Assembly (NCBI GenBank): GCA_936450465.1
Contig: OW388297.1
Location: 48,002,130-48,066,129 of the forward strand
Direction of reading: 5' to 3'
Length of the DNA: 64,000 nucleotides
Origin: Gibbula magus
Taxonomy: Eukaryota; Mollusca; Gastropoda; Trochida; Trochidae
A program made the position numbers and the translations under genes. How positions within the stretch are numbered: position 1 is the stretch's first letter; every line of letters begins with the position of its first letter. Below, one piece after another: positions 22,795-54,000 of the stretch. A model generated the notes under the pieces. It saw only the letters and a list, made by a program, of their open reading frames with translations, had not been told where the DNA came from and made no database searches.

Positions 22795-23635
22795 AGAAAG
22801 ATGCTGTAAACTGAAATAGGCTTTTAGGTTATGATCCCTGTGACCCATATTTGGGGTCACAGACTCACCAAATTTACAATTTAGAATCCCTTACAGCCAA
22901 GGAGTCTGTACATAAAATTTCAGCTCGCTAGAGCCATTGGGACTGGAGATGAAGATGAAAATAGCATTTTAGGTCATTGCCTCTGTGACCCAATATTTGG
23001 GGTCTCACTGTCACCAAATTTACAATTTAGAATCCCCTTCAGTCAAGGAGTATGTACATAAAATTTCAGCTCGCTAGAGCCATTGGGACTGGAGAAGAAG
23101 ATGAAAATAGTTTTTTTTAGGTAATGACCCCTGTGAGCCACACTTGGGGTCACAGGGTCACCAAATCTACAATTTAGAATCCCTTTCAGCCAAGGAGTCT
23201 GTACATAAAATTTCAGCTCTCTGGAGTCATTGGTTCTGGAGAAGAAGATGAAAATAGCTTTTAAGGTTATGACCCCTGTGACCCACATTTGGGGTCACAG
23301 GGTCACCAAATTTACAATTTAGCATCCCCTTCAGCCAAGGAGTCTGTACATTAAATTTCAGCTCTCTGGAGTCATTGGTTCTGGAGAAGAAGATGAAAAT
23401 AGCTTTTAAGGTTATGACCCCTGTGACCCACATTTGGGGTCACAGGGTCACCAAATTTACAATTTAGCATCCCCTTCAGCCAAGGAGTCTGTACATTAAA
23501 TTTCAGCTCTCTGGAGTCATTGGTTCTGGAGAAGAAGTCGAAAAAGGGAAAAGTTTACGGACGGACGGACGGATGGACGGACGCCATCCCATGCCATAAG
23601 CCCATCGGGCCTTTCAGGCCAGATGAGCTAAAAAG
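22795..23635 (+). mobile_element. Pearl/Helentron-like non-autonomous element B
   Basis: Five tandem units of ~146 bp (CAAGGAGTCTGTACA at about 22898, 23044, 23191, 23336, 23481), each with TTTGGGGTCACAGGGTCACC. They are followed by an ACGGACGG run (23557-23583) and a terminal GC-rich stretch with GGCCTTTCAGGCC (23610-23622). Same architecture as element A but a different core sequence. Apparent open frames in it are repeat artefacts. Confidence 0.7.
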
Positions 23636-26579: not shown

Positions 26580-28634
26580 TCACATGTTCAGGTCACTGAG
26601 ATTATAGGAGAACCGGCCTGGCTGACTGCTCTTCTTCACTTTCATCGACTGGAGGTTTTCTGGTGGAAAAATGGGAGTAATATTCTGTTTATTGCAAATT
26701 GGTCATCGATGTTCATTGTTCAACATTTTCCACAATCTCAATTCTGATTAAAGATTCAACTCAAATAATGAAAATATCCTATTGGATTATTTGAGGCTTG
26801 CATTTTCTTTAAATAAATATATTCATCAAGCACTTACTTGACATTGGAGTTTGTGAGAGACCCAAAAACTTATGGCAAATCGTTATTCATAAAATGATAG
26901 TCATACTGCTACAAAGTCACACCGGAATGCCGTTACAGAATCCTTTACTAGCTGATGCAGTCATAATCTGATTAAGCCAATCACTGACATCTGATAATAC
27001 AGAATTATTTCCTATGTTAAGGAAGATGATTTCCTGAAGGACAGCCAACCAGTGATTAGGCACTAGCTCAGCACATCAAGGGTTAAAGATTCACATAAAG
27101 AAGATGACAGAAGACGTGAAACTGTCCACTTACCGGAGTCCCCTCCCCCGTCAGGTGTGTGAGCCCAGGAGTGGGGGCGAGAGGGGGGTTGTTCCTCGGG
27201 GACCTGGGGGGTCATCCCCCGCATCAAGCACTCAGGGTGGTACTGGTCCACTGCGAAGTTGTAGGACAGGGCTGCAGCAGAAAACAGGTGTCACATTTCA
27301 ACATGCTCTCTTGTCATGTGTCTAACTTTTTGCATAGTGCCCATGAAGAAGCATCTCTATAGTTAGCTATATAATTTATAAATACATATATTTCAAAGCT
27401 TATTTCTCAGTGGCCAGTATTATACCAGGGAGAAAAATCCACATCAGCAACAATTGACTACTTATGCACATGGTTATTACAACATGAGAATGGGTTGGAT
27501 ATCCACCTACCAGCGGCGGACGGAATGAGTCGATGCCAGAACGGTCGCACGGCAGGTTTCAGGGTTGGATGCCAGAACGGAGCGTAGATAGCTTCCGCTG
27601 TAATCATAATGTACAATAGTTCATTGGTAATAAAGATATATTAAAGACATCATATTTATTTGCATTGACATATTGAGCCCATGTTGGTAAGAGGGAACAC
27701 AACATGCATTTTTAATGCAATCTAGTAATTAGAAGTTACATGATAAAACATTATACAATAATGGATTGATGTATTCGGTCAATACCTGCATTTATTAACC
27801 AGAGGAATCGAGTATTGACCTCATCATTAAATCGATAATGAAGGAGAGAAATGTCCCCAGCGCTAGACTCACAGTATATCTGGTGCACAAGGGCCCTCTG
27901 TTTGGAGGCGACCACGTCCGGGTCCCACAGCTGCAGCTGTCTCCTGTTGGGGTGGATCTGTCTCAGCAGCTTCCGTCTGGGGGAACGAGAAATAGTGTAT
28001 AGACAGACGAACAATGTATATTAATTTGGAAATAATTGTATGTAATTGAGAAACTTAATTTCAATTGTCTCTGTAAACCCTCCTGGATGGATTAACAACG
28101 TTGTAAGTCCCTCATTCCTAGCGATACAGAAATCTAATGATCTTGAAAAGACTGTCTGATATGAACGATTATACGGCGGTAGGTTGATAAGTGTGTAGAC
28201 CTACAGTGTTTTCCTGAAGGAATCAAATAATAAAAGGTCATACACAATATACTTGAATATTTTGAATTGATGTGTCTGTCTTAACTGCTTTTCTCCAAGG
28301 CATAAATTTTGTTTAGATTAACCTCAGATACTATGCTAAATTACTGGTAAATTCTAACAAGGCCACATGGACAAAATTAACAACATCTTAGCTTGATGGA
28401 TGGAATGTTTGAAACTATTCATGTATCGAGGGCCAGTGGCTCTGCATAAAATTAACATCCCTGATACAACACTGCTTATTTCACCTGAAGAACTTCCTCC
28501 AGGCCAGCTGTATTGTGAGCGCTGCTATCTGTCTCTCCCATTCTGCCTCGGTGGTGCGTAGACGTCGCCGCCGCACTGCACTGCGAGCCGTGGACGTTAT
28601 CTGTTTGCTGACCTTGGTGAACCGGGATTTGTAC
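26580..28634 (-). CDS. INVS: INVS C-terminal exons 20-24
   Basis: Exon 20 (28634-28485) completes the second IQ motif (IQRAWRR then YKSRF) and encodes a basic segment VRRRRLRT and a third IQ-like motif ALTIQLAWRKFF, which continues in exon 21 (RRKLLRQIHPN). Exon 21 ends ALVHQIY, matching the VLKQIY block of vertebrate inversin. Exons 22 and 23 encode Pro/His-rich sequence (YAPFWHPTLKPAVRPFWH; VPEEQPPSRPHSW) without known domains. Exon 24 encodes the conserved tail GRFSYNLSDLNM and TGA. Exon 23's donor (GTAAGT) and exon 24's acceptor (CCACCAG) are good. Confidence 0.9.
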
Positions 28635-31600
28635 CTGTAGAGAGTAGCTGATTAGTTAGCTGGAGGAGACAGTCTTACTGGAAGGGGTAAATGGATTTTC
28701 AAAGGTTTTTCACTCTTAACATAATCTAGAATTTACTCCAAGAGAAAGGGGACCATTGTGATTCTGTGTTGCACTGAAACTGTCTGTGTTGGCTGGGGTT
28801 ACTTAACTGAGGGTGATACTGCAGTGAAACACAATGAGGTGAGGTGAGGTGAGTTAGGGTTTAACGCCGCTTTCAAGAGTATTTCACTTACATCGCGGCT
28901 GCTAGTATTATGGCAGGGAGAAAGCCCGCAACGCCATGTGGCTATGCACTGCGGTGAAACCTGCGAGCATCGGCTGGAACTAGCAAACCATGGGTGGTAC
29001 TGCACTGAAATTCAGTGTAGCATTGCACCCAAACCTTACTGGGTGTAGAACAGTTCTCTACTGCAGACAAAGTTGCCGTGCCCCTGGCGGGATTTGAACC
29101 CCGGACCTCTTGATCCGAAGCCGAACACGCTAACCACTGCGCTATCCCGCCCCCGAAACACAATGAAGCTTCACATCAAAACCGTACTGTATGTAGAATT
29201 GTCCAAAGTTTGACAGAGGAAAATAAAGATGGAGAGTGACAGTCTCTGTATGCAATACTTGGTTTTAGGGTTTTCTTCTGACCCACAAAGGACCATTACG
29301 ATAGCGACAGCCTATAGTGACTAACTATTGCAATAGCGAGAGTCTATTGTGACCTAGCTACTATTGCTATATTTTATCAACAAATGAAATTAAACAAACT
29401 CCAGAATAAACAGTGTTTCATTGCCTTTACTTTTAAATTACTTCTTCCAAAATGTTCGAAGGGTCTGTTTGAAGTCTTCTAGCATATTACAAATCTAAAA
29501 GCTGCATTTGTGCAAATCTTACTTTTAAATTAAATTACTGAAAAATAACTGAATTTACTATCAAAACTATTGATAGTTAGCTGTGTTATCGATAATATCA
29601 ATGTTTTTTTTAATTAATGTCAATAAAGTACTATCGGGACAACAACTATTGCGATAAGTCAATCTATCATTACTTGGTTTAGCCTGTCATAACATGCATG
29701 CTGAATATAAAGCTCTGTTCTGCTTAATAAATTTGATAGAAACACTGATAAAACATTAAAACCAGAAAACAGTTTATATTTCAAATTCATGATTTGATCA
29801 ACATTTTGTTGTCTGAGGAGTGGGTCATTTTGTATAATTCCCACAGAGAGTGGAGACAGAAGAAATGACCCTTTCCTTGACCAGAATAATGATTAGCCAG
29901 CACTGAGAGGATGTACTTACTCCACAACAAAATTACATTTATAAATATAGAATACTAAACGATGTCCCGTTTGATAACATGTTTATGAAACGAGTGAATG
30001 GTTTGGTATTTTAACGAGCGAAAACGAGTTAAATACTGATGTCATTCACGAGTTTCATAAACATTTATGAAACGGGACCGAGTTTAGTATTTATTTATTA
30101 CTCAATGATGTAAATAGCATTGAATTACAAGAAAAACGTTGTTAGTGACGCTCACTTGCAAATAGGTCACCCGCTATTGCAGTCGCACGGCTAACATTGT
30201 GACGTCAGCCAAAAATGACTGTGACGTCACGCGCAGATTATTACGTTACGGCAACACACATTGGTATCATATATGTGTGTAACCAACTCATTGTTATCTA
30301 ATGAGTGATCTCACCACGGTTGAGTAATAATGGACTTTTATAATCTTACTGGTATTGTCTTAGAAAACCCAACCCAGCCTGAGCTCCATGCAAAGCCGTC
30401 CCGGTCCCACACGTAGACCTCACAATAATGCTGGAGACCCACCTCCTCCACGTAGACCGTACAATAATGCTGGAGACCCACCTCCTCCACGTAGACCGTA
30501 CAATAATGGTGGAGACCCACCTCCTCCACGTAGACCGTACGATAATGCTGAGACCCACCTCCGCCACGTAGACAGTACAATACTGCTGGAGACCCACCTC
30601 CTCCACGTAGACCTCACAATAATGCTGGAGACCCACCTCCTCCACGTAGACCGTACGATAATGCTGGAGACCCACCTCCTCCACGTAGACCGTACAATAA
30701 TGGTGGAGACCCACCTCCTCCACATAGACCGTACGATAATGCTGAGACCCACCTCCTCCACGTAGACCGTACAATAATGCTGGAGACCCACCTCCTCCAC
30801 GTAGACCGTACAATAATGGTGGAGACCCACCTCCTCCACGTAGACCGTACGATAATGCTGAGACCCACCTCCTCCACGTAGACAGTACAATACTGCTGGA
30901 GACCCACCTCCTCCACGTAGACCGTACAATACTGCTGGAGACCCACCTCCTCCACGTAGACCTCACAATAATGCTGGAGACCAACCTCCTCCACGTAGAC
31001 CGTACAATAATGCTGGAGACCCACCTCCTCCACGTAGACCTCACAATAATGGTGGAGACCCACCTCCTCCACGTAGACCGTACGATAATGCTGAGACCCA
31101 CCTCCTCCACGTAGACCGTACAATAATGCTGGAGACCCACCTCCTCCACGTAGACCGTACAATAATGGTGGAGACCCACCTCCTCCACGTAGACCGTACG
31201 ATAATGCTGAGACCCACCTCCTCCACGTAGACCGTACAATACTGCTGGATACCCACCTCCTCCACGTAGACCGTACAATACTGCTGGAGACCCACCTCCT
31301 CCACGTAGACCGTACAATACTGCTGGAGACCCACCTCCTCCACGTAGACCTCACAATAATGCTGGAGACCCACCTCCTCCACGTAGACAGTACAATACTG
31401 CTGGAGACCCACCTCCTCCACGTAGACCGTACAATACTGCTGGAGACCCACCTCCTCCACGTAGACCTCACAATAATGCTGGAGACCCACCTCCTCCACG
31501 TAGACCGTACAATAATGCTGGAGACCCACCTCCTCCACGTAGACCATACAATAATGGTGGGGACCCACCTCCTCCACGTAGACCGTACGATAATGCTGAG

Positions 31601-34600
31601 ACCCACCTCCTCCACATAGACAGTACAATACTGCTGGATACCCACCTCCTCCACGTAGACCGTACAATACTGCTGGAGACCCACCTCCTCCACGTAGACC
31701 TCACAATAATGCTGGAGACCCACCTCCTCCACGTAGACCGTACAATAATGCTGGAGACCCACCTCCTCCACGTAGACCGTACAATAATGGTGGAGACCCA
31801 CCTCCTCCACGTAGACCGTACGATAATGCTGAGACCCACCTCCTCCACGTAGACCGTACGATAATGCTGAGACCCACCTCCTCCACGTAGACCGTACAAT
31901 AATGCTGAGACCCACCTCCTCCAAGCCCTCTGTATGGTGACTGCTGCCTGCACCTTCCTGCGTATCTCCTTCTGTCTCTCCTGCTCTGTCCGCTTCTTCA
32001 ACTGGGCTTCCTTCCGCTGGGCCAGAATTATCTCCCTTTCTGTCAGTTGGTGAGGAGTCCTCCTGGCAAAAAGATGAAATAGTTGGAATTCATCCTAACA
32101 GGAGACATGAGTGTTGATAATATAATTGTACCATGTATCGATGGTGTAAGGCAATATTGTTAAAATGATTCTTAAACTGCAAAAATTTTTACAAATAGCT
32201 GAATACATGTTAAAACCCTATTTTCAAGATGATTTTGGAAAAGAGGTTGATCAAAGATTTAAGGATTAGCCCGCCACACCCATATTTGATTTTTTTTCCC
32301 CCCAATATTTCAGCTTTGGGGGTAAAACAGCTGTGAAGAACTCAAAAATAGTTGCAGGACTGCGAACAACAGCACATGCAAAAAGCACATCTAATTTTAT
32401 CAGCCTGATTAGCTAAAAACGTAAAATCTCATATATAAACATACAACTGATGTTCTTTCCTGGACCTTCTTCTGTCTGTTGGTAAGTTTGTGTTCAATTT
32501 GCTCATGGTGGGCATTTTGAAAAGTACTGAAACCACTGGTCAAAGTTTCCCTTCTTTGACAGCTGTATTGTCCAAATGATATCTGACCACTGTTGCACCG
32601 TATCACCGAATCACAACTGTAGCAGCTTTCCAACTTCAAACTTTCACTCAGAAATACCTCCAAATTGAATGGAGAGCTATGTTGCCGTTTGAAGATCCAT
32701 AGTTCATATATAATGCACTGAAAAAGATATCACTCACTCAACACCAGAAGCTGAATATCTTCCACCATAAGCTGGCAACTAAATACTGTAAACAATTCTG
32801 AACGCAACTGGTCCACTGAATTATTTCCCAAAGCGACTCAATTAACCTCACAGTGAAAGAAAACAGCAACTATTTCTCACCAAGTATGACAACCAACAAA
32901 ATGTACCAATGTACCTCCCTTCAATTATTGAAGTTTCTTCCTTGAATATATTCCATTTTGTGCCTCAAAAGTTACTTCCAACTTAAGTTACTCTCCAGGA
33001 AAATAAAACAGCCAAGCAACCAAGAAGGCCTACATCGAGTTGTCCCCCAACAAAGTGTAACAGTATACGTCCCTTCAAGGTACTTCAGATACACAGTTGC
33101 AACTTCCAAAGTTAACTTGCTTTCCAGTGAAGTAGAACATCAAGGCAATCAGTATATCAACCAACTAAGTGGAACAATGAACGTCTCTCCTCAAACACAT
33201 CCCAGCCGCTATGTCTATGTCTACTACTGTAGTATTTTCAAGACTTGGGTTACTTTCCAGTGAAATAAGTTAGCCAAAAAGCTGTACCAAGCTTGTAAAA
33301 CAGCTCTTGCCTTCCTTGAACACTGGTGTTTTAAGCTAACTCCAATTTGAAACACTTTCCAGGGAAATGAAAGAGCGAAGGAACTATCGAAAAGGTAACC
33401 AATTATGTGTACAATGAACAGCCCTCCTATTTATTCCAGTTGGTACCCTGGATGGTAACACTGTTTAACAAAGCTGATCTTCAGTTACTTTCCAGTAAAT
33501 TAAAGCTGAGACCTTATCACCAAGATATTGACTATAACAATGCATAACCCCCCTTGATCCACAGGCAGTAATGTTACACAATGTTGGATATTATTAACAA
33601 TGCCTCTCTATTAATCACAATGTATCAGATATCAGCTATACTGTACAGGAGATCAGTCACAATGTATTTATTTCAGTCATGCACCAGGGAATACAATAAC
33701 TAATGCAAGATATCCAACAGCTTCTGATCAGGTTCATATAGAGTAACTACCTGTGACATTCTTCCTAGAAACCAGGACTGGTTACTTCTTATTGAATTAC
33801 ACTTGTGACGTCATCCTATTGTTCTTTCACTGCATTATTTTCCAGTAATGGAGAGTTGCACATCACATCATATTTTTTTAAGTAGAAATTTATTTTCTTT
33901 AACTTTTTAAAGAAATTTGATAATAGCAATACTTTGAGTGTAATTTAAGTAGGGTAATATCTTCGTAACTCTCCATTCCTTAAAAATAATGGGCCTCGGC
34001 TCGGACATTACCCTCTACATCATGTATCCTTGAAGCTGTCCTAAAACCCACAATTTGACAAGCTTAAATAATGATTCACACTATGCTGTTAAATTTGGGC
34101 CCAACCGTTCTGAAAGCTCAATGTACAGGAATCAAAACTCTTGCCACTAGCTAGTATCTTTACTATATATTGGAACCCGAAGTATAGGCGTTTAACTCTT
34201 CAAACTAAAAGTCAAATCATTCTCAATAAACATATGTCACACGATTTTGTTGAACACCGGTACCTGAACATCAACAAGTGTTTGCCACTAACATGGCAAT
34301 GTCCCCCGCCGTTAACATTGAGCTTAGCAAAACACATCATTTGGTCAAGTGTCTTAGTCACCTTGAAAATAAGGTCAAGGTCACTAAAATCGACTGGTGT
34401 CTGCGTCATCCCCCAATGTAGACTGACACCAACTTTGACAACTTTGGGTGCTTGGGTTAACTTTGGGTGCTTGGGTTCATGAGATATTGCGTTAACAAGA
34501 GTTTTAAAAGTGGTCGAAGCATTGTGGTGGCCTTGAAAATAAGGTAAAGGTCATCAAAATCGACTGGTGTCTGCGTAAACCGCCAATATAGGCTGTCAGA

Positions 34601-37600
34601 AAATATTAAGACATTATATCTAACCGGTCATAAGATATCATGTTAACAAGAGACAATAAAGTGGTCGAAGTGTCGTGGTGACCTTGAAAATATGTCAAGG
34701 CCACCAAAATGGACTGGTGTCTGCGTCATCCACCAATGTAGCCTGGCACCAAATTTGAAGACTTTGAGTCCATCCAGTCATGATATATCACGTTAACAAG
34801 AGTTCGAAAAGTGGTCAAAGTGTTGTGGTGACCTTGAAAATATGGTCAAGGTCACCAAAATCGACTGGTGTCTGCATCATCCCCCAATATAGCCTTGCAA
34901 CAAATTTGAAGACTTTGGGTCCATCCAGTCATGATATATCGCGTTAACAAGAGTTCGAAAAGTGGTCAAAGTGTCGCGGTGACCTTGAAAATAAGGTCAA
35001 GGTCACCAAAATCGACTGGTGTCTGCGTCTTCCCACAATATAGGCTAACACCAAATTTGAAGACTTTGGATAAAATGTTTCATGAGATATCGCGTTAACA
35101 AGAGTTTGAAAAGTGGTCAAAGTGTTGTGGTGACCTTGAAAATAAGGTGAAGGTCACCAAAATCGACTGGTGTCTGCGTCTGCACACAATGTAGTCTGAC
35201 GACAAATTTGAAGACTTTGGATAAAATGCTTCATGAGATAACGTGTTAACAAGAAATGTGATGTACGGACGGACGGACGTACGGACGCCGCTGAATACAT
35301 AGTCCCCCGTTCCGCGTTGCGGCGGGGGACAATTACACTTGTGAAGAACAAATATTTCCGTTGACCTGCAAACAAATAAATACCCTTAAGGCCTGTTCTC
35401 AAGATACGACTTGTGGTAACAACTTCAGGTTGTTCAACTTAATTGAATCGTGAGAACACTCGAGTTGTTACAAATCAGCATTGTAAATGTAGACATTACG
35501 GTTTGATCAACAGAAGTTCTTGCTACAAGTCGTACCGTAAGATCAGACGTTTACCAAATACACATGCACCAAACACATTAGTTTCTCTATGGCAAATGTG
35601 GACCACTATCAAAGCAGACATCCCTTTACCCTTCACATGCAGTGTTCAGAATATTTCAATAAAGCCCATCTGCTGCCGACAATCCTTGATTCTCCATTTG
35701 TCGATAAGTTATGATTCCTGAAAATGGGCGACCTAGAATGGTTTGTAACTGATTCATTCAGCGGCTAAAGCTAATGAGGAATTAAACACAAACACAAACG
35801 AGTTCCTCCGTGGGAATGACCACAAAAACTACTCCTGGAGACACCCGAAGTAAAGAAAGGAAACACAACTTGATGGCAGACACTTCACAAATGTGGATAA
35901 ATAAATCATACACTCTTCCCAAGGTAAAGACGACGGCCCACAATGATATAGACTCACTCCACAACGGGCACCAGACTCAATGTGTTTGATTATTAGGCAG
36001 ATCCAGGTCCAGATTGCTACTCTAATCTTTGTGAGGATCTATTCCACTGGTTGAGCACTCCAGTGATCAGATACAATGTACAGTGGGAAGTGGGAACCGA
36101 TTCTACCCCTTTATGATTGATTGCATGCTAAACGCCTGACATGGCGATTGGATATACAGAGATTATTATCTGGATAGAGATAATCTTAACATAATTATTG
36201 ATAGGATTTGATCGCACTCGAGTATTGAATTTCATATACAAATTGATTAAATATCTAATATCAAAGATAATGAAACTGATCCAACATTATATCAATACAG
36301 GTCAAACATTTAAAATCTCACTTAATCAAAGTTCAGAGTAAACTTCATACTGTATTGATCATCTACAATTGATCTGATAATTGATCTTGATAACAAAACT
36401 TTCACACAAATTACAAACGCAAAGGTAAAAAGATGCATCCTGAAAGTATTCCACAAATTAGTTTCAAGGCTCACCTTAAAGGCATATGCAAGACCTCGGC
36501 CATGATTGAAGCAGAAATATCACTGTACAGTACAATCTCCACTGTTTGATATCAACTCATAGTTCACTCTCACAGGTGTGGAATAACTGGCTTACTACCA
36601 TAAGCTCTTGCAGACGAGTGTTAGACATTACAGCATATCACGCCCCAGTGACTCTTCTCAAAAGAAGGACAATGTCAGGTCAAAATTGAAAGTAATTGCA
36701 ACCTTGGGATCAGGCAATGGAGAAAGTAATGTACCTCGTGGTAGGGTGGTGTACGTATTGTATACCTTTTGGGACAAGGATATCAGTGGTTATCATTGTG
36801 ATGAGAAGTGTAGAATACAAAGCAATAAAGTATTGAACATGGGACTGTCCGTGCATGTGTGTGATTGTGGTAATAGACACAGACAAATTCAGGCATATGA
36901 AACTTGTCACTTAATATCTGTCATCAACATATTATATTTATAAGATGCTTTCAAAATATATGTCCATTGTTTGTATGTCATTCAATCAAGAAAGTGTTGA
37001 AACCACAGGATTTAAAAATATAAGAAATCAAGTCAGCCTAGCAAGATTTGTTATAGGTAACAGCCTAACAAGGACTGCATTATGAACCGTCTCAGATAAC
37101 AGCACTTGAGATTCAATGACACTTGACTGCAGCACTCAAATGCTGAAATGTTTATGTGAAATCTAAATTAAAAATGCCATAACTCACAAAACAAATGATA
37201 AGTATTTTCCCGAAGGTTGGATCAATATTCCCAAACACTAGCCAGAGTTTTTCTGAATGACAGTTGCTAAGTAGAACGTGTGTGCATGGTGGGTCATGTT
37301 GCTTTCACTGTTCAACTGACAATTCAATATGGGTTTAAGTTGTCATGAAACTTCAAGGCAAACATTAAAAAAAATACTTTTGGGTATTGTAATTGTTTTT
37401 CTACCTCATATCTATAACAAAATAACAAGAGTGCTCTGAGAGCAGAACAACAACCACCATGTGTGTCCTATTGACATCATTAACCCTCGAGCTGCTATAT
37501 TTCATAATACCCTTTTTAGCTCCTATGACGGAATATTCATCCCCCAAACTCGCCGCCAGGTGAGACTTTAGCCACCCCTAGCTGAATTCCCAGACAGTGA

Positions 37601-40600
37601 ACCTGGTACGGACTAACTGACTCTCTGGGTATGCCTGCGGGGATAAATGAATGTACTTTTTCCATCCTGGACTAACCCGGGATCCGCAAGTTATTAAGGA
37701 TTTAATTGCTGCTAGATTTGTAGGAAGCCCTTAGGCTTTGCACACATACGAGGGGCGTTCAATAAGTGTTGCAACTTCAATATAAAACCAACTCGCGTAG
37801 TAAATTTTTTACTTTTATTTTTCAATATAGTTACCCTTCACCTCAATACACTTATTCCATTTCTCTTTAAGACTTTTGATGCCGCTTTTGTAGAAGTTTT
37901 CCGTTTGCCCCCCTAACCACGCCTCTGTGGCAGCTTTGACGTCTTCGTCATCCCGGAAGTGCCTTCCACGTAGGGCGGATTTCAGGTTTCTGAACAGGAA
38001 GTAGTCACTGGGGGCTAGGTCTGGGCTGTAGGGTGGGTGGTTAAGCTGTTCGAATCCACAATCACGTATAGCGGCCTGTGCAACTCTTGACTTGTGGACT
38101 GGAGCGTTGTCATGCAAAATCAGAACACCACATGTCAACATTCCACGGCGTTTCTGTCGAATTGTCTTTCGCAATTCTTGCATTAGGTTGGCATAATATT
38201 GACCATTCATTGTAGTTTTGGTTGGCAAGTAATCAATTAATAATATGCCTTTTGCATCCCAAAAGATTGTCGCTGATGGTTGAGTGCGAAACTTCAGGGG
38301 AGGCGGTGAACTCGGGTGCTTCCATTGCTTGGATTCCAGTTTAGTTTCCGGGTCCCAGTGGTGGATCCAGGTTTCGTCACCTGTCACCAGACGAGACAAA
38401 AACCTGGCTTCATCCGCATTAAACCGATTCAGGAGCTCCATGCAACTTTCAGTTCTTTTCTGGCGATCTTGTGCTGTGAGGTTTCTGGGTACCCATCTTG
38501 CAGATACCTTGGACATACCAAGATGGTCATGAATTATTTTTTCAACACTTCCAACTGATATCTGGAATTCCAAAGACAGTTCAGAAACTTTAACACGGCG
38601 GTCAGCTAAAATTCGTCTTTCGATAGCGTCAATGACTTCCGGTCGGGTGACTTCAGATGGCCTGCCTGACCGTGGGTCATCGTCTAAGGACTCCCTGCCC
38701 GCTTGAACTGAAGAGACCAGCGACAAACTGTTGAAAAGTTAGGAGCATCCTTACCCATCACATTACACATACGATTTTGTATTTCTGTAGCTTTGCATCC
38801 CTCTTTAGTAAGGAACTTGATCACAGCGCGTTGTTCATGTTTGAGAGAATCCATGATTATGGAGACCCCTAGGTCAGCGCAGCTATTATATCTAAATAAT
38901 TGTTATGTCTAGAAATTGTTTTGACATGTGTCAATGTTATGTTTTGACTATAGTAACACCTGCTATAAGCTGACACTGTTTATGTAAACACCAATGCCCC
39001 GCTTGCAACACTTATTGAATGCCCCTCGTACATCATAGTGACAGGTTTAACCTTCTTTAATTGATCAATTTAATGTTGTATATATACTTAGAATTTTAAA
39101 CATTCTGTTGATCTGCTATAAGAACAAATTAATCTCCCAGGAAAGAAGAATATCGGCTTTAGATTTACCAGGCAGAAGGTTAAGACATCAGTGCATGTAT
39201 TCATGCTTGGTAAAAAGGCTTCTGGTAATCTGAGAGGTTCAAACCAGAACTTATCCTCAGTACAGTAGATCAATCAACCAATCAGAATCGTTAATCCACC
39301 TCTGTCATGGTACAATAACCAATATATCTTCTGGTATTATCACAAATTAACCCTTTACCTGCTGAAATCATTATGATCAAATAATAATAATTATTGATCA
39401 AAGCGATCGAGCAATCAAGGATTAGCTTGTAGCTAAAGATAGGCATGTCCAGAATAATATCATGAGCAGATGAAGGGTTAATCTCGTCTACCTCGCTCTT
39501 GTTCAAGCACTGCATAGATGCCCTACTAAAACCCTTCATTTACACTTCTGGGATGAAATAGCAGTGGTTTAAAGCATTCGACTTCAGATCAAGGTCCTGG
39601 ATTTGAAACTTGTCGGTGGCTTGGCAACTTCAGTGTTTTGTAATAGTATAGATCTGATATCGCTGTCACTGTTATCTTTGATTATGTGGATATCAAAGAT
39701 TGCTTTCTTTTAATTTTGGAGTAAGTCGGGATATCAGTAGTTACCACATTTGGCAAATCAAGATGTCCAGGAGCTTGGTAACTCTCTCTACTATAGATAA
39801 CTGTTCTACATGCACTAACGTTTGGTTGCAATGCAGAACAATTCATGGTTTGCTAATTCCAACTGCCATGTATAGCCACAATGGTGTTGCAGGCTTTCTC
39901 CCTGCAATAATACTAGCAGCCGTGACATAAGCGAAATACTCTTGAAAGCTGCGTTTAACCCCAAATCAGCACACCTGAAGTACAATACAATAATTGATTC
40001 ACTCTATTTGCAACAACATTTTTGGTTTATTGAAAACCAGTTGGTTAGAATAGTACAACATTTGACTTATCACTTTATCAAGAGGTTCAACAACAACACA
40101 AACATTTTATCAACAACATAAATGCACAGGACATGTTCACTTGAATTTCGCACCCTTGACAACTCTCCCTTTATCCCTTTACTTGCTTGTCCAGTATTGA
40201 TACGGGAGGCTCATAGAGAAAAATGTTTTACCCCTTGGCGAGATGCGTACGTTGAACTTAGTACATATACCGGGTCAGTAATAATTATATTTGGTCTCCA
40301 GGCGAAATGCGAGACGAAGTGTGTCCGTTTGATCGCCACATGAAAACTTGTTTATATACATCTCGTAGGTCGCCACGATATCGAGACTTTGTCAATGTCT
40401 GGTCGAAATGTCCAGCAAAAATCACACCAAATTGTGTGTGCATTGTTGACCCGTAAAGCATCTATATTTACAAAAAGCCAATTTTGTCGGGCTTCGCCCC
40501 GAAGCCGAATCTCCTTGGGGGCTAATTATCACCCACGTGTTTGCATTGCCTCGGGTTTGCATTGCCTGTACATTCTATCTGCCTTCCATCTCGCGGAACG

Positions 40601-42020
40601 GGGAAAAAAAAATATTGATAACTTGCCTACTCCCGCACTTCATACCATGTGAACGAATTGTTTGTTTTAAAAAAAATTGATGGTAAAATAAAGGGGAAAG
40701 AATAGACTACAATCCCATATAAAATTCGCAAATGTCAAAAAAATAATAAAGACACAGCAAGCGCCGCGAAAAAGGTCATGTTTACACTTCATAAATTTTT
40801 AAACAATCTGCGATTTTCACAACTTTTTACACAATTTATCACTGCTAAACTACTGAATGCATTTTCATAATTTTTATATCACAATAAACCAAAAAGAATA
40901 ATCTTTTATTCTGTATAAAATGCGCATATTTATTCACAGAAATAAAGACACAATTTTACCTTACTGAGAGGCATGTAAAACCAAAAGACACACAAACTAA
41001 TCAACATATTTTCATCGGTTATTGTTCGAGGTTAGCATTTATTTGAAAGGTCAAAAAACATAACCATATTTGGGTTGACATGTGCTTATTTGTCAACTGG
41101 TTCGAGATTATGATTTCTTGGAAAAGTGCGATGAACAATGCCGCATACATGTTGTAAGTATTTACGATTTTATAGGTGGAATGACAAACTTTACATAACT
41201 ATAGAATTATAACCAAAGGTCGCATTCTTATAATTTTTATATCATTGTGAAGCCAGACATCTTGTTTTCAATTCCGTAAATAAATTGAATTTTTTCGTTT
41301 CTTATATATGATATTATGTGGCCCGAATTAAAGACAATCTTTCGAAAGTAATAGAATAAAAACATTGAAAATTCATTCAAAGTTACGGGTGTGAATTAGC
41401 AATTTGTGGCCGGGTGCCGCGACTTAAATTTGTATTAAACGCCCGAATATAGATGCGGAATATTTCGTAAAAAATGGTACCGGAATCGCCGCCTGGAAAT
41501 TCCGCCAGCAGAGCTAATTAGTGCCTAAGCCAAAATACTGCTGCGAGCTGGAGGGTCTGTAAATTCCGCCACAGGGGCTAAAATGGGTAAAATAGAAATA
41601 CGCAACGTAAGGGTTAACATATTTAAACATCAGAGACTGATATAGACTCTTTACTGGCAAGGTGAGACTGATAATTGGTTCTTAGGTTTATACACGAAAA
41701 TACTTATATAGCGCTTATATCCAACAATATTGCTGCTCATTAGCGCTTACAGATCGCTTTTGATCAAATGCTGTTTGGAACAGATGAGTCTTTAAGTTCC
41801 TCTTGAAGGTGATAAGTTCTTGAAAATGCCTGAGATGTAAGGGAAGCTTGTTCTGGTTTGGGATGAAAATGTCTGATATAGTGAAGTAAAACATTGGAAC
41901 AACACAACAGTATCTGATATAAAGGTAAACTAGTTATTTGAGACAGTGTATCTCCAAAGATAAACCTATGCAGGCGCAGACCTTGCTGTCACTCCCAGTA
42001 AATAGTGTCCTCATCGGGTT

Positions 42021-42061
<41 letters not shown>

Positions 42062-45000
42062 TCGGCAGTAGGTTATATCTCTTACACTAAAAAACCAGGC
42101 TATGACAATGAAGAGAAGTTGTAACAAGAGTCATCAGAAGATGACATATCCCACCGGTTCCACAAAATTTGTAAAACACATCTTTGACAGATACTTGTGT
42201 ATCTAGTGTATTTAGTGGGTATTACAGATGCTGAGTTTAAGGTATGTTAAGGGTTTTAGACTTCTGCTCAAGAGGCAGTCAAAATCAACAACAACCAACA
42301 TCCCTCTCATGTTTCTATGGAAACAGAAACAAATTAATTTTTCAGAAAAAATCTGAAAATATCAAAAGGCACCACTTCAGTTAGTGGGTAATACACATGC
42401 AAAGTTTCAGGAAGATGTCATGAACGGTTTTGGAGCTATGCTCCGGAAACGAACCTGTCTCTGAACAAAGTCCAAATTCAACAAGTTTCTTTGGAAACGA
42501 AAAAAAATAAAAAAAATTAAAAATATGAAAATATCAAAAGGCACCACTTCAGTTAGTGGGTAACGCACATGCAAAGTTTCAGGAAGATATGATGATTGGT
42601 TTTGGAGCTCTGCACCGGAAACGAACCTGTCTCTGAACTTCAACATGTTTCTATGGAAATGATCAAAAATAAACTTTTCAGAAATCTGAAAATATCTAAA
42701 GGCACCACTTCAGTTGGTGGGTAATACACATGTAAGTTTCAGAAAGATATCATGAACGATTTTTGAGTTCTGCTCTGGAAATGAAATGATCACGGACGGA
42801 CAGACGTACAGACGGACGGGGTGATGACTATATGACTATAATATAGGACAAATCTTATGGATTAATCGATTTGTTTCTCACAACATTTTGGGCCACTTCT
42901 CACCCTTTCTTCTGGTTGATTATATGGTCCTGTTTATTTACAGTCTGTATCATTTGGTGATACTACAAGTACAACGTTGGAACAGAAAGTAGAAACAAGC
43001 CCTATCAGTCTACGAGTTCACAAGGGATTTCCCCAGATTCTTCATTTACCCGCCATTTCGGAATCTTGTAAAGCGATACTATAAACATGAGATAAGCAGT
43101 CGGGTTGATTACAATAAGCTCAACCGCCCCAAGAAGGGGGGAAATAACATACAAAGACCGCATCATGTTAAATCACTTGAATTATTTTATTTTTATAAAA
43201 AAAAAAAATCATTTGTAAGCAAGTCACTTAATACTAAATGAAACAAATAAAAACAACAGCGCACAAACTTGAATTGCCATGATCAAGATATAATTTCAGC
43301 GTTTTCTGTGCAAACTAAGAGCAGTGTCAGTTGGAGGTATGTGCTTGTACAAAACTTTAGAACCATGATTTGAAAAGTAACATACACCAGGGTAAACTCA
43401 ATCCAGCCTATTTCATTACTTAGATTAACATTAATATCATTTAAATCATATCCTAACCATTCAAGGAGACACTTAGTGTCAGTATTATAACCGACATTTG
43501 CTTCTTTGAAAGCCAACAACAGTGTTCATTATATACACGCCGAAAGAGTTTAATGTATTTCTCTAGATATGTACAATAAATGAGCCTAGTATAAGCAGTG
43601 TGTGAAATGTGACTTTCAACAGAAACTGTTACTAATTTATCATACAAACATTGTTCCAAGTTTGAAAGATTATTAAAGTAATAGATACTGTATATAAAGA
43701 TGATAACTTCCATGTTTGACTGATACACAGCATTATATTCTTAATAAAAAAATAATCATTAGTTGATTGTCAATGAGTCGAAACTGTTTGGATATTTCGT
43801 GCAGACGACATTTTCTCTTTCTAACCAATCAGATGCTTTGTCTTGGTCACGTGACCTAGATATTAGAAAATGGGAGAGAATCTGGTACAGGCTACAGAAT
43901 GTATTCCCTCAGTATAGCAGGATGTTTGTGTCAAAATAACTAAATGCCATCTATGTTTAATGATCCAACTACACCATGGTAATGACAGTTTGTTTATATG
44001 ACCGATGAAACAAAAAGATCCAGTTGTTAAAGTATGGTACCCCCAAGACACTGTGTTTACCCCTTCTGAAGGATTGCCCATCTCAATTACTGATATCATC
44101 GTATTTAAACAAAACAGAGACGTCAGTGGTGACCTAGGGTGATAGCTCCTTCAAAATAATTACAAATATCAACGATAGGGGCAAAGATGTTGACACATTT
44201 ACAGTTTCAGAAACCCTTACTTGTGAATGGAAAGCCTCAGGAAGGGTGGTGTTCTTTGACCAACCAGAAAACAACATTTACTGAAGCTCCACCTATTTCT
44301 TTTAATTGACATGATTACTGATAGAGCAACAACCAATAAAAACCCTAGAATGATGCTCTATTTAGTTTGAAACAAAAAGATCCAAGCTTAGAAGTAGGGG
44401 GATCGAGTAAAATTTGCAACCGGAAGTGGATACATCTGCTGTTTGTAGTTGATTTGTGTTGCCATTGTTGATGATAGTAACTTTATTATGACACATAACT
44501 GTGGATAATTATACTTTGATCCCATAAATGTAAAGGTAAGTGTTCTTCTGTTGTTATATTTTGAGTATTTGAGACATTTCCAGATATACCCACTTTCGGA
44601 ACTACCAATGAAATCTCGTGAGGTGTCATATTACATTCCCCATAGGCCCTGTACAACCAGAACGAGGCGGGATTCCCTCCAGATAATGAAGCTAACGTAC
44701 TGAACTTGTAGCCTGTATCTACCAAAATTTGATACATGTATACATTTCATAGGTTTCAGCTTCGTTTCATGTCAATCATGAATAATGGTGCTTCACCTGA
44801 TGGCCATAGATTCTATGACAGCTGTAGAAGTCTCAGTAAATATCCAGAAGGCCCAGTTTGAACCCTTAATCCACATCTACATCCTCAATATAATGATGAT
44901 AAACTTCTCAAGAGACACTTTGTGGCTAGTTAGAGATGGGTTAGAATTTCATTTTTGATACAGCAACAGTGCAACAAAAGTTGGGTAAATACAAATGAGA

Positions 45001-48000
45001 AGGATCCTTGTCGTTTACTTAGGAGGTTGTCAAACACTCACTTCACAATAATATAATTTTAAGGAAAACCTTCTTCCATTGATTGAGGTTCAAAACTGGG
45101 GAGGTGCTTGTCCATGGTGGGCTTTAGGAGCTTACAAGCTGGTTTCTACATGGATCCACTTAAGGATACAAGTAGCCGCAATAATGTGGTTAAACATTAT
45201 TAAAAGAGAAAAGAAGGGGGGTGCGGCTACCAAACACATAGAAAACCAGGCGGTTGACAACTTCAAAAGGGTTTAATTTAACGTTTCGGCACCTGTGGTC
45301 TGAAGCCGCCCTCACGGGTGGCGAAATGTTACAATTAAACCCTTGAAGTTGTCAACCACCTGGTTTTCTATTGATTGAGGTTATAAATTTTGTTGTTATT
45401 ACCAGAAATATTTACTTGATATCATATCATTATTATTTATAACTATTATCATTACCAAAGACACTTACTGTTTTGAACTTGGCTTTGTTTCAGCAGGTAC
45501 TGTCTCAGGCATTTCCTGATTGTCAAGGGGGACTAGGTCAGAGGTCACATATCGCTCCTCGACATCTCGCTTGTGCTGCACGTCCTCCTTCCGTCTGTAC
45601 TCCTCCACAGCTCTCTTCCTGCAAAGAGTCAGAGGAAAAGACGATGAAAACTATAAACACAAAATATTCCATTTGGTCTGAATTATATTTTAATCTGTAT
45701 TATCAAATTGACCAAATTACATATATAAGAGATATTGGTGTAAGAATTGCAATATTGGGCCAATGATGGAGCTCCTTTGGTAGATGAGAATACTTCACTT
45801 ATGATAATAATTAAGGTTAGCAGAAAGCTCGCAACACAACTGAATTTAAGCATTGCTATGAAACCTCGCATTGATTGGAACGAGTGATGGTAATGTATTG
45901 AATTACAATGCAACAGAACAACCTAAAACATCATTTGGAATAGTTCTTTCTCACACATAAAGTTGCCGTCCCTTGGCAAAATCCAAAACCCATACCTGGA
46001 TCAGAAGATGCTAACCACTGCACATCCAACCCTCATATAAGCTGAAAGCAATGCATTGCATTGTTGCCAAGTTATTTTTCTTTTACCTACGGTCTCAGAA
46101 TAATCCAGCAGAGCAGATCTTCAGTCTAATTCCTGATGATTATCTTCATCAATGCGTTGTGATTTCTATAGACTGGCCACTCAAAATGGTCTCACACTAG
46201 TTGATTTATAGTACTACAATGTTCAATGCTGTAAGCACAGAAAGTTGGCATGAGTGTCCAAGATAACAAACTAACCTGGCAGCCTCTTTTTTCAGCTTCT
46301 CATGCTTCATCAGCAGTTTCTTCCTCTCGATAAACGTCTTCCTCACCCGATACCCACGGAACGCAGACTGGAACAATGTTTACACAGTGACATTATCTCC
46401 ATGGGTAATGATATCAACTTTTGTCCTAATATATAATTGTCCTAAGTACTTTATGAAATGGAAATTAATCATATGTATAGCTATTGCCATTGCCAGTGTA
46501 TACATTTTTCTGTCCTTATTACGCTGAACATCAAACGAGGAAGGAACAATTAAGTTCAATCTATAAACTTTCAAAGTATGACAAGGTTTTATTGAGCTTT
46601 GCTCTTGCACACCAAGTGTTTGCGGCACAATGCAAAAGCAGAGCAGCCCCGAAACTGAGGGTCTCGACTTTCCTTGTTCTGCCTTCTCCACAGCCACAAT
46701 AAAACTGGCAATTTTGTTTAACAAAATTTTGTTCATCATTGGAGTTATTACTAACAAGTTGAAACATCATTGGGGTCACTTCACACAAGTTTGTTCTTAA
46801 AACCTATTTCTGATTTCAAAATTGGATCAAATGGTGAACATGGCCGTTACCAATATCTCATGACCTTGACCTTTGACCTTCAAGGTCACAAAATCAATGA
46901 TCACTTTTCATTGTGTATAGCAATCATGTTATGATTCAATGTGTTAACAGTAAATGTATTGCATATTCACAAATGCATGCTTAAGTTGCGACCCCGTTGT
47001 GACCTTGACCTTTGACGGATTATAGCGAAAACCTTTTTAAATCTTGGCCTTTCTCCATAGTTGATATATACCAAATAAGAGCCTGACAGCACAAATATTG
47101 TTCAAGTTATTGTGTTTACAAGGAATATTTTCAGTGATTTCAGAACTTGTGACCTTGACCTTTGACCTTGAATGTGAACATGTCAAAATAATTCCCTAGG
47201 TGTATAAGAAAGAAGCAATCTTTATGAGGTATTAAACCTTATTGGGAAAAAGTTATAGCCAAAACAAAACGCGGCGGTGGAAACTGCACAAAAACTTATA
47301 GCAGTCGGGGCTGCTAATTACCATAACAGACAGACGAAGGCAGCAACATGCAGGACTGGGAAGTTATTTTCAAACTGAAATTTTAATTGGGCCATCGTGG
47401 CAATTGCCAGATACTAATAATATCCCCAATGAACAAGGTCATAATTTAGGAGGATAGATCTAAAATGATTCTTGTCAAACATTATCATGTTATATATCAG
47501 TGTCATGACAAACATATGATAAGTAGCAACATGCAGTTACTTTTCGGCTGTAATTTTATTGGTTCTATTGGGGCATTGGGGAATTTTAGCATGGGGGATT
47601 GTACGGTATGAGCATATGGGAGCAGAGTGTAGGGGAAACAAGACGTAATTGTAACTACAAATTCATGGAATTTGAGATATCTAAAATCCCATTAATGACC
47701 TTGATGATAATGTCAGAGGAAATATTTAAAGGGAATCTGCATGATTCTTGTCAAATATTGCAATGTTATCAAATTGGACCATGTGTAGATGAACTGAAAA
47801 GACTTTCATGAGTCTTCCAGTAATAAACCATTTTGCATGTGTACCTGTATTTTCTGAGCTGCGATGTCCTGTATACCGGTGATAGAGAGTGCCCCCTGTT
47901 CTATCATGTACTGGGCCACATCGTGGTGCTCCCCCATCAGGGCGTAGTCCAGGGGCGTGTATCTGTCGGCACGATATGTTGCTTTATTGATTAGGAAAAT

Positions 48001-51000
48001 AATGATAAAAACACTAATTACTGTATTTTTATACACAAAGTTTCTCAACAATATCAGTATTTTTTTAAAACAATAATCTGAAGTAAAAAAATGAACAATT
48101 TTGTCCTTTCTCAACATCCTGACTACATATCAGAGTTACTATGAAAATATAAAATAACAGGACTCTGGGTCCTACCGACCTTTGCTCCATAATTTTAAAG
48201 AGATACTCATACTTTCTCCTTGACTTAATTTCTATAACGCTTACATGATAGACATTCAAAGTGCCTACATTTCTTTTACCTTTCTTGCTTAAATGTTTCA
48301 TCTTTATCAAATGCACATCTAGCACCCAATCAACTTTGCTCGATATTAATGACTTTGTGTTCCACCAGTAGTTTCACTGTGTCATGGTGAGATTTCTTAA
48401 AAGGGCAGTAGCACGTTTTTGCGTTCAAATAAGTTGATGAAATGTATTTGAAAAATAATTTCAGCAATAGTAAAACACCCTTTCTCTCTTTGGAAAAACA
48501 AGTTTAAAAAGAGTTTACATGGCTCTGTAAAGCCATGGGAATAGTTTTTGTCATTCGAAATAATAAAATGTGTTCACAATAAAATTGCCGTCATGCAATT
48601 TTTGCTATATTGGCAACACTGTTATTACTACTACGGATAATTGGTTTGTGTAATAAGATGTTTTACCCTCTAAAGTCAATTAAAATGACACAAAAATTAA
48701 ACTATCATTATAAATAGAAATTTGAAAAAATAAATTTTGCAAAATACAGCCCCTTTAACCGAACTTTTAGTATATCTATTTATTATCAAATCAAACATGT
48801 TGATGCCCCTTCTCCTCACCTGTCCTCTGTGAACTCCATATGGTTGACATAGGCTGTGTGTTCGACCAGTAACTTCACGGTGTCCAGGTGACCCTTGCTG
48901 CAAGCCCAGTGGAGGGACGTCATACCCTGGGGAGAATACATGCAGACAGATTAAAATCAACCCTGATCAGAGGAAGAAAAGTTACAAAATAGCATCATCA
49001 CACCAAGTGGGGAGGAGGTCACTGATGAATGTTCAATAATATCCAGAGATTACATAATCATAGTCAATACAAACCTCATTATCCTGAGTGCTGGGGTCTG
49101 CCTTGTGTTCCATGAGTACAGACATACAGTTCACAAACCCTCCATACGCTGCACACTGGATCGGGGTCCGGCTGCAAGAACAAGACAATTTAACTTTAGA
49201 TCGTTGAAAGTTTTAGTCATTTAAACAAATGCACATGAAACTGATTGTATTTAACATTTTGCACTGCTTAAATTTACAACAAAAACTTTCCTTCTAGTTG
49301 ATCAAATTACAGAAAATCTTACCCGAAAGATAAAATGCCATTCTTTAAAAAAATATTGTTCACAAACTAAAATGAAAGATCGGTATATCGGGATCACTAG
49401 TGCAATAGATATTAGATTGTGCCAGGAGTTCCTTCGGGTGCATGCAGACAGAGATGACAAACGTACGTACCCAGTACAGAGATGACAAACGTACGTACCC
49501 AGTACAGAGATGACAAACGTACGTACCCAGTGTGGTCCCTGACGTTAGGGTCGACCCCAAACCGGATGAGAGTCTGACAGATGTAGGCGTGGCCTCCCAG
49601 AGCAGCCCTGCAATGTCAACATTTGTTCTCACCATTTGTTAACAATTCTCCTGCTTGAATACGATGGATGAGAAAGTGAAATGGAATACTGTAGTTTTTA
49701 AAAGTAACTCTTGGATATAGACACCTAAATGAATCATCTCTTCATAAATTACTTCTTGACATACACTATGTGAAGGTGAAGATGAAAAACAATTCAATCA
49801 AACTTAATTTAAATAAAGTAAACATAATGCAAACCACCACTAAAGTGGAAAGCACTCAATCTGTACACGAAAATCTACTTAACCAGAGATTGAAAAACTG
49901 ATATATTATTATTGAGTTAGTTCGTGCATCAGCTAGTTAGCTCTGGCACGTATTCTATTTTCCCTTTCTCTGAATGCCACTCCACGAGTTGTTTTGATTC
50001 GTGAGCAGTTCTGTCAGTTGGCAGTTGTGTCAAACTTCCTGGCATGAAAAAAATGATACATAGAAAATGGCCCTAATACATGACAAGGCTGCACACCTGC
50101 ACTTAATATACAGCAAATGCACCAGCCAACTGCAAATACACAATGCTTGGCTGTTACTTATAGATTCATAGCCAGTGAAATAAAATTCCATATAAAATAA
50201 CCTTGGAAAGTTTTGGACCAACATGAACTGAATTTATTACTAAACACGAAACACTAACCAGTGAAGTGGAGACCGGCCATCCTGATCAAGGGCGTCCACC
50301 TTAGCACCAGAGTCGATGAGCACCTGCACAACATCCGTGTGTCCCATCTCACAGGAGCGGAACAGCGGTGTGTGCTTCATTAGGTCGATGCAGTCCATGT
50401 CTGCTCCCGACCCGAGCATGATCCGAACTGTGCTGGTGTGGCCAGACAGCGCAGCGGCATGGAGGGCTGCACATGGCAGGAAGAGGGTTAATATGTTATA
50501 CAGTGGAAAAGAGTGTCATACAGGGGGCAAGAATGTAATACAGTGGGCAAATTTGTAATAAACAAGGCAAATGTTTTATTCAGTTCGCAAATAAGTAACA
50601 GATTGGTCATATATATTAAAGTGAGAAAATACATAATAATAATAAAACCAAATATAACAAGATTTCAATCACATTATATGATCATTCTTTGTGTGTATTA
50701 TTAGAGGTTTATCATTTCCTAGCAGCTTAATTATTATATTTTAGCAAATTTACTTCGTTTTCAAAGAGAATTGTACTTTACCAACGGCTAATGAATGGAT
50801 TATTAGGATGACAAACCTGTTCCTCCATTTTTATCCTCCTGTTTAATATCAGCACCGTGTTTGATAAAGACCCGTATCACATCGTCAGCCCCCTTCCCAG
50901 CAGCCCACATGAAGGCAGTCCGTCCGTCCACATCTCTCTCGTCCGTCACTGTCTTGCGACTCACAAACACCTCCACTGTGTCCTAGACAACACAAATCAG

Positions 51001-54000
51001 AGATAGTAACACATTTCAGATAGATATTAAATTATTGCAATGCTACTGTTAAATGATGAGGATGCGATTACTCTTGGCAACATGATTGCTTAGTGGAATG
51101 GTGCTGTGTATCAATTTATCTCCACCAGCTAAACAAATATGCATGAAATAAAATTAACAATAATATAACATAATATTAATTAAACAGCCTCAACTTACTC
51201 TTTAAATTATGTCTAACAACAACAATTAAAATTCTAAAAGACAAAATGTAATAGGATTATCATTTGAAAAGGGAGACAACTCACATCATAGTTGTTTTGG
51301 GCTGCATAGTGTAGGGGTGTGGCACCATTTGAATCGGAGCTTGCATAGTCAGCACCGCTATCAAGCAGCATACCCACGATCTTGGAATGTCCTGTAAAGA
51401 TATACAGTTGTCAACTTGTTTTGGCTTTGTTTCTATTGCCATTCATAAAAAAACAGGCTGTCTTTATATATTTTGCTACAGTAAAAGTGGAATAATAAGT
51501 CTTCTGCTCACGAATAATATAGACTAACAAATCAAAGAAGAGTTTTCTGAAAGAAAACAAGATTTTCTGAAAAACAACTTCTATATTTGGTAGATACATG
51601 ACATTGCAGAGTACATGCTTACTCCGTATCATTATATTCAGAGGTGTGTTTTGGTGTGTGTAATATTTTCAACAAGACCAACTCACTTTCATGCATCAAA
51701 CTAAATAGCTTCCCATTTTCAAAGGTGACGTATGTAGGCATAAAGACTAAATATGACAGCTTGTTTTCATGGGGAAATATATAAACCTTTTTGAATGGCA
51801 AGTTAACAGGAATCACGTTAGTCAGAAACACATTTATCAAAAGAAAATAATATGTGGTAGTTAAAGAAGGTTATCCCTGAGAATTCAAGGACCAACACGT
51901 AAAGATTGAACTTGGTTAATTGGACTTGGTTAATGAGAACACATCATCAACGGAATAATGGTGGAGCAACAGTTGGATTGTCATCAACCACTGTATTTCA
52001 GCATATGTTGAGGACATACAAGCACATCTAGACATAGCAGAGATGATTAAAGCAAGAAGAAAATATTGCAAATCTCACCGAGCACTGCTGCCCAGTGGAG
52101 AGGAGTGCGGAACATGTTGTCGAGGGCAGAGACATTACACTTGACCACACTCGTCTGCAAGAGAGGCTATGCTTGTATCAATTGGTGAGAAACAATTCAT
52201 CAAAGAAAACACACATGGTAATCTATTGACTTTTATACCATGACACAAATCTGAAACGTCAACTTACAAGCACATTGACGATACTCTCATTTCCGTCGGC
52301 AACAGCGAGATGCAAAGCTGTGCGGCCCTCATAGTCCTGCCAGTTGATCACGCTCGGAGTCGTCTCCTGAACAGACATACAAACATACACGCACATGGAT
52401 TAATGCAGCAAGAATGAAACAGAAATAGAGCAAACATGGAGCAAGAATGCACAAGTTGGTCTACACCACTTTGAGCCTCAAAATCCACATGCTTATTAGA
52501 ACTGCTGTTTACTTCGATTCAAATATGTCATTTCCCCAACAAATTATTCTTGTTTCATCGCACTTTTGTTGTTGAATTTTTTTTAATTTTGTGACTCATT
52601 TAATCTCTTATGCCTAAAGAATTACAATTTTTTTTTTTTAATTTTATTTAAAAAAAAAAAGTAAACCCTTCTGGTTAATTAAATTTACTTGAGACCTGGC
52701 ATTTTCTATTTGAATAAATGAAGACTTTCTCTTGTTTGATAGTTAATGTATAAGTTGGTAGTTGGAGGATTCGACAATGTAACAAAGTATTTTCTGTATG
52801 ACATCCTTCTTGCTTTGTTACAACCTTTTTGGACCTTCTCCCAGTCTGATCATTACGTATAACAACTTCTCCTCCCTGAACTCACCAGAATGAGCTTGAC
52901 ACAGCTGACGGCCTGATGGTCCCGACTGCTGGCCGCCCAGTGTAGCGGCGTCTTCCCTTCTGTATCTGGGATCCCGATATTGGAGTCCTGCAATCACAGT
53001 TTACATTAGTTTTCACAATGTCAGAGTTAGGTTGCACCTACTTAAATTACATTTAACTTGGATGAAGAATTAGAATACTGAAGCCAATGCTAACTTGGAG
53101 AAGAAGAAATACCTGTTTAATGAGCATTTTGACGTGTTCCAGATTCCCGTAGGATGCTGCCCAGTGGAGAGCTGTTCTCTGCAAGACGGAAACAGCAATC
53201 ATATATAGGTTAGATTCCCAGTCTATAAAGGACAACTTCAACAGCTTATAGATATTTGTTATATTAAAGAGGTGAATCAATGAACACTAATGGCCTGGTG
53301 AACAAGAACTCCTGTTTCATGTAACCTTAGAAAACAATCATATTCAAGGACAAACTCCATAAAGGTTCATAAAGCTATTTTGATTTTGGCTACATGGACA
53401 TGTTGGGAATAGTAGCTACAAACAGTTTGATGTAATTCTTTTAGTAACTCAACTTTTAGTAACTAGTAACTGTAAGACAATACTGATTTCAGACACAGGG
53501 TGGAGTCAATACTCTTTTCTGTCAAGGGTCTGTCAAGTGATCAGCTCTAGTTCAACCACATCACCATAAAGACATGCTTACATAACGATAGATTAGCTAC
53601 TTCCTGATTCCAGTACCTTATTCTTGTCCTGGTCGTCCATCTCCCCAGGAGTCAGTTGCCTCAGCAGGAGAGCCATACACTTGGGTAGTTTGTGTCGGGT
53701 GCAGAGGTGGAGCGCGGTCTGACCCTCGTTATCCTTCTCTCGACAGTCCGCACCCTTACTCAGCAGCAGCTTCAACAACCGGTAGTTGCCCTGACGACAT
53801 GCAAAACAAGACAATTGACAAGAAGTCCTCGCCTGAAGAAAAATTTAGCAAACAGAAGATGAGAAACACTGAAAAGCATATATGGATGGTTCAGTGTTAA
53901 GAGTTATGTATCTCCCTACCTTATGTGCAGCCCAGTGAAGAGCTGTGCGCCCGCCCTTGTCCCGCAGGTTGACTTGAGCACCGGCCTTCACCAGGGCCTC

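Follow-up and report, generated by a model that had tools for sequence, protein, structure and literature searches.

A very large minisatellite carrying copies of a 5′ splice site in the inversin gene of Gibbula magus

Intronic minisatellites that straddle a 5′ splice site (donor) are known from human genes. In IFI6 (6-16, G1P3) the units are about 12 bp long and present in about 26 copies. This minisatellite was reportedly the subject of work by Turri, Cuin and Porter in 1995. It supplies multiple donors, with two downstream repeat units used and three mRNAs formed (PMC4526556). In intron 7 of human factor VII (F7), the 37-bp repeats number four to seven, and this number is said to correlate with mRNA level (PMC3492156); splicing there normally starts from the 5′ splice site that lies furthest upstream and from no other, a behaviour called “oriented scanning” (PMC6627357, citing Borensztajn 2006). 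Tandem genomic duplication has further been linked to intron gain in a potato RNA-dependent RNA polymerase (RdRp) gene (PMC4974935). Here, we describe a donor-straddling minisatellite of 39 units in the inversin gene of the gastropod Gibbula magus, on the minus strand of a 64,000-nucleotide (nt) stretch of contig OW388297.1 (G000:C9:48002130-48066129; hereafter the window), taken from an assembly of 1.47 Gb whose 140 contigs include some of tens of megabases.

The inversin array is of the same kind as those of F7 intron 7 and IFI6. Its unit of 38/39 bp is almost equal in size to that of F7, but it holds 39 units as opposed to four to seven, its sequence is another one, F7 is a vertebrate clotting gene, and no homology between the two is claimed. 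It differs from IFI6 in unit length and copy number; downstream donor use has been reported for IFI6, and may or may not occur in inversin. The potato RdRp case resembles ours as a within-gene tandem duplication tied to splice sites; there, however, a new intron was proposed, whereas our case is the multiplication of an existing donor junction, from which we infer no additional intron. The first-pass annotation of this DNA knew of no described case of this size, a statement that, in view of F7 and IFI6, can stand at most for the size and does not extend to the kind, and the surprise is limited because the basic kind is already known. Our literature search returned nothing on inversin plus minisatellite and no donor array of about 39 copies was noticed, which, with subscription papers largely outside its scope, is not proof of absence. 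The array is real and well resolved, and it belongs, at a very large size, to a kind already described; any role beyond that of a tolerated array is unproven.

An array that begins inside exon 19

Tandem Repeats Finder (TRF) delimits the array at 30410-31923 on the minus strand, with 39.1 copies and 93% matches, which bears out the 39-copy minisatellite previously placed at 30411..31920. Cut at the unit head, it resolves into 39 head-to-tail units, 30 of them 39 bp and nine 38 bp long (nos. 1, 2, 3, 9, 19, 22, 28, 31 and 36), which fall into 15 distinct types. Each unit joins the last 8 nt of exon 19 to about 30 nt of intron 19, with the consensus TGGAGGAG/GTGGGTCTCCAGCATTATTGTACGGTCTACG, the slash marking the end of the exon. 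All 39 matches in the window to the 17-mer at the unit head, TGGAGGAGGTGGGTCTC, lie within the array when up to three mismatches are allowed, compared with an average of 0.09 over 100 shuffles. The donor 9-mer GAGGTGGGT (GAG/GTGGGT) is intact in 38 units, so that the expectation of a donor in every unit holds except in unit 25, which reads GTTGGT, and the 14-mer formed by TGGAGGAG and GTGGGT is intact in 37. Judged by eye, the unit variants follow one another in a recurring order, B-C-D-E-F-I with losses and insertions.

The gene that hosts the array is a complete inversin gene. In our spliced model, AG precedes exons 2-24, GT follows exons 1-23 and the phases are consistent; the numbering of the array-bearing exon as 19, given at first pass, is correct for this 24-exon model. 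The predicted protein shares 82% identity over 948 alignment positions with Haliotis rubra P0001 (“inversin-like” being the name given by its source), bivalve inversins are among the next-best matches, and Pfam recognized ankyrin and IQ domains in the 809-residue part that was submitted.

That the end of exon 19 seeded the array, as had been proposed, agrees with its edge, which lies 8 nt inside the exon: the first unit straddles the exon-intron junction of a coding gene, and the units repeat TGGAGGAG/GTGGGT. Joining the first donor to exon 20 is a phase 2 join that keeps the frame and reads AWRR/YKSR, restoring the conserved second IQ motif colinearly with relatives, as expected if one genuine donor stands ahead of the copies. 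Out of 218 matches, 40 relatives were aligned, and none of the 33 with residues on both sides of the exon 19/20 join carries an insert there. The exon-end residues WRR are also present in Haliotis P0001 and Branchiostoma P0011; being common to both, they indicate that the exon 19 end sequence is older than the array, and therefore that the exon seeded the array and not the reverse. By predicted U1 pairing, the genuine intron 19 donor ranks fifth in strength among the 23 inversin donors. The coordinates of these features, and of a second array discussed below, are collected in Table 1.

Table 1. Inversin features and donor-straddling arrays, in window positions
Feature	Position	Strand	Description	Basis
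Minisatellite in exon 19/intron 19	30410..31923	-	39 units of 38/39 bp	TRF, unit splitting, motif counts
Complete inversin gene	26580..55733	-	24 coding exons, 942 amino acids	Spliced model, without internal stop
Exon 19	31916..32062	-	147 nt, phase 2 at both borders, last residues AAVTIQRAWRR (second IQ motif)	
Genuine intron 19 5′ splice site	31910..31918	-	GAG/GTGGGT	Predicted U1 pairing -10.0 kcal/mol
Exon 20	28485..28634	-	Acceptor CTCTACAG/GTAC, continues IQ-motif frame (WRR/YKSR)	
Exon 13	49527..49607	-	Ankyrin repeat, donor TGG/GTACGT	
Second donor-straddling array (exon 13)	49448..49531	-	Three perfect 28-bp copies, each ACTGG/GTACGT (5 exon + 23 intron nt)	

Genome-wide, the exon-side 14-mer gave 45 matches, 37 in the array and eight elsewhere, while its letters reversed, as a control, gave 63. 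Six of the eight off-array sites were read; all are single, with flanks that by eye differ from the array unit. With 37 of 45 genome matches inside the array, a dispersed repeat family as the source of the unit is not supported for this 14-mer.

Origin of the array and use of its donors

From the unit anatomy, the unit variants and their order, all of which can be read directly, we infer that the exon 19 donor junction was probably duplicated and then expanded; by analogy, the most upstream donor would be the one in use and the other units mostly silent. A tandem duplication with one breakpoint 8 nt inside exon 19 and the other about 30 nt into intron 19 would have copied the exon-intron junction, after which unequal exchange or slippage would have expanded and reshuffled the array to 39 units; the recurring order of unit variants is the pattern that repeated multi-unit exchange would leave. 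Such an array could persist because its first copy recreates the junction as it was before, which leaves normal inversin as the product of the upstream-most donor. The remaining units sit in the intron and would mostly be passed over if the locus behaves like human factor VII intron 7, a parallel that also argues against strong splicing diversification by the inversin array. The first-pass proposals that the array might buffer, confuse or diversify splicing, or sequester U1, are conjectures. The array would then be mainly a tolerated by-product able to leak and, at most, a weak copy-number-dependent modulator of splicing or expression.

Several points weigh against this account. The leak may exceed that of factor VII, because IFI6 also uses two downstream repeat units. 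The first donor would have no intrinsic advantage, because 38 donors are identical 9-mers, and the G-quadruplex motif GGAGGAGGTGGG could mask donors unevenly. Finally, the intron-side part of the unit may have a dispersed source, the genome-wide search having covered the exon-side 14-mer.

If instead several donors were used, the array would diversify splicing: isoforms of inversin would be lengthened by 0 or 38-103 residues in the second IQ motif, in a mix tuned by copy number, an outcome that we consider unlikely. In its favour, donors 4-9 keep an open reading frame, and splicing at them would insert the 38-103 residues, compared with none at donor 1; furthermore, use of two downstream repeat donors is on record for IFI6 (PMC4526556). 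On translation, however, an intact frame into exon 20 comes from only seven of the 39 donors (1 and 4-9), with all remaining downstream donors leading to a frame shift or a stop. The added residues would split a motif that runs unbroken in 33 of 33 alignable relatives, and no insert-bearing protein was found when the array insert was translated on the minus strand (2468 candidates within the length limits of the tool, none at E 10). Nor do we see a sign of selection keeping the donors: one of nine donor positions varies, compared with 10 of 29 sites in the remainder of the unit, a difference short of significance (p 0.24).

An action by structure or by binding of protein or U1, as opposed to donor choice, might be imagined in the form of RNA G-quadruplexes, R-loops, or a sponge for U1 or serine/arginine-rich (SR) proteins, and we hold this for slightly less likely again than splicing diversification. 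In its favour, the factor VII repeat number was reported to correlate with mRNA level (PMC3492156). At the inversin locus itself, the two-tier G-quadruplex motif GGAGGAGGTGGG overlaps the donor in 37 of the 39 units, and the RNA-sense strand has a GC skew of +0.34. In the window, GGAGGAGG has no other occurrence on the RNA-sense strand of the array and one on the opposite strand. A 300-nt segment running from the end of exon 19 into the array is predicted by ViennaRNA to fold at -96.5 kcal/mol, and at -185.2 kcal/mol once G-quadruplexes are allowed. These are predictions, however; two-tier quadruplexes are weak in cells, and cellular U1 far outnumbers 39 sites in one pre-mRNA.

Assemblies often mis-size tandem arrays, so the copy number could in principle be an artefact of a smaller array, but we regard this as very improbable: the 15 unit types in non-trivial order and the contigs of tens of megabases both suggest that spanning reads underlie the assembly, and the exon-end architecture is independent of the exact copy count. 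Least credible, and rejected here, is a protein-coding repeat, on one strand or the other, in place of an intron. Several frames on both strands do remain open over long distances within the array, and read-through from exon 19 stays open until about unit 12, but this openness follows from the few stops that the unit holds, the nine 38-bp units shift the frame, relatives are without such an insert, and a search with the minus-strand insert found no protein homologue.

The locus offers 39 near-identical natural donors in a row, and with them a demanding experiment of nature on the choice that the spliceosome makes between 5′ splice sites of equal standing. If scanning is first-come, donor 1 alone should be used; competition models predict a spread, and the 15 unit types would help to label which donor had been used. 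Other donor arrays of the Gibbula magus genome, with differing unit sizes and donor strengths, could act as replicates.

Exon 13 and donor arrays elsewhere in the genome

To the known kind, this locus and its genome add a triplicated exon 13 donor and donor arrays that follow A2M-, Sushi- and TACI-like sequence elsewhere. Because 28 bp is out of frame, normal inversin can come from no donor of the exon 13 array but the first. In the window, 25 TRF rows were reduced to 16 arrays by merging rows at the same place and dropping the 4-bp and the 2-bp array. Of these arrays, two span a donor and have an edge 3-15 nt past the final base of the exon, a rule that was set after the data had been seen. 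When the 16 arrays were placed at random, at least two donor crossings arose in 54 of 20000 trials and at least one in 1479; with an earlier list of 20 donors the corresponding fractions were 0.00135 and 0.0618. A donor 14-mer recurs within 400 nt at two of 20 donors (exons 13 and 19) and at none of 20 acceptors. Since 206 of 3000 random window sites recur likewise, the two donors represent no excess, and this control speaks against a special role of donors.

Across the genome, three CAGGTAAGT consensus donors spaced 15-45 nt apart gave 730 matches compared with 142 for the reversed pattern, a difference that we do not read as enrichment because matches overlap in arrays, one array can give dozens, and the matches listed span C1 to part of C10. 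Among the matches listed, places were grouped by eye into 17 stretches that were fetched; one frame from each of seven was submitted to Pfam and the other ten were inspected by eye. Three of the seven frames matched a family (A2M, TACI-CRD2 and Sushi) and four had no match, while the ten stretches judged by eye showed no clear exon.

The clearest case is an A2M-family frame (L032, G000:C6:12808500-12814000; Pfam E 4.9e-11, above cut-off), for which a PDB search gave alpha-2-macroglobulin at E 3e-6. It is followed by an array of 17 CAG/GTAAGT sites with a 51-bp unit, and an acceptor precedes the first donor by 114 nt. The 51-bp unit corresponds to 17 codons and by eye is open in the frame of the exon. 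On G000:C2, an array with a 31-bp unit follows a TACI-like frame (L026; Pfam TACI-CRD2 E 9e-4, below cut-off; TNFRSF13B in PDB at only E 0.19), and one with a 53-bp unit follows a Sushi-like frame (L025; Pfam Sushi E 0.023, below cut-off; complement receptor 2 and CD55 in PDB, CD55 alone at E 0.0017). From sequence similarity, the identity of the flanking exon thus appears clear for A2M and weak for the Sushi- and TACI-like cases.

Rough arithmetic on assumed figures for intron number and donor share puts the true donors at perhaps a third of the exact CAGGTAAGT sites. Three of 17 stretches following an exon does not point to any preference for exon ends, and placement is about what chance would give by the same kind of rough arithmetic. 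Donor arrays recur in the Gibbula magus genome, but a preference for exon ends is not supported and one control, that of recurring 14-mers, speaks against it. It would be a rather improbable step from here to donor-junction minisatellites as a recurring, tunable architecture in which copy number adjusts the isoform mix or mRNA output between individuals, with inversin exon 19 (39 copies), exon 13 (three copies), the A2M-family exon and the Sushi-like and TACI-like ends as its examples.

Arrays of three of the ten stretches judged by eye, on two contigs (L023, L036 and L037; G000:C1 and C10), share by eye one 40-bp unit containing CAGGTAAGT. This unit may represent a dispersed minisatellite, perhaps one borne by a mobile element.

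Other features of the window

No known RNA family reached its gathering threshold in the window, and ARAGORN in its bacterial setting returned no tRNA there. Further tandem arrays were delimited by TRF at 20426-21420, 22814-23544 and 34477-35254; their units, of 145-152 bp, are similar in length. Two nested inverted repeats with arms of 27 and 22 nt lie at 29951-30091, some 320 bp away from where the exon 19 array ends on its intron side, and by eye resemble a miniature inverted-repeat transposable element (MITE). The 13.4-kb intron 18 contains a transposase frame on the minus strand (37818-38902), which we take to be mariner-like and in which Pfam recognized Transposase_1 and DDE_3 over 37821-38738.

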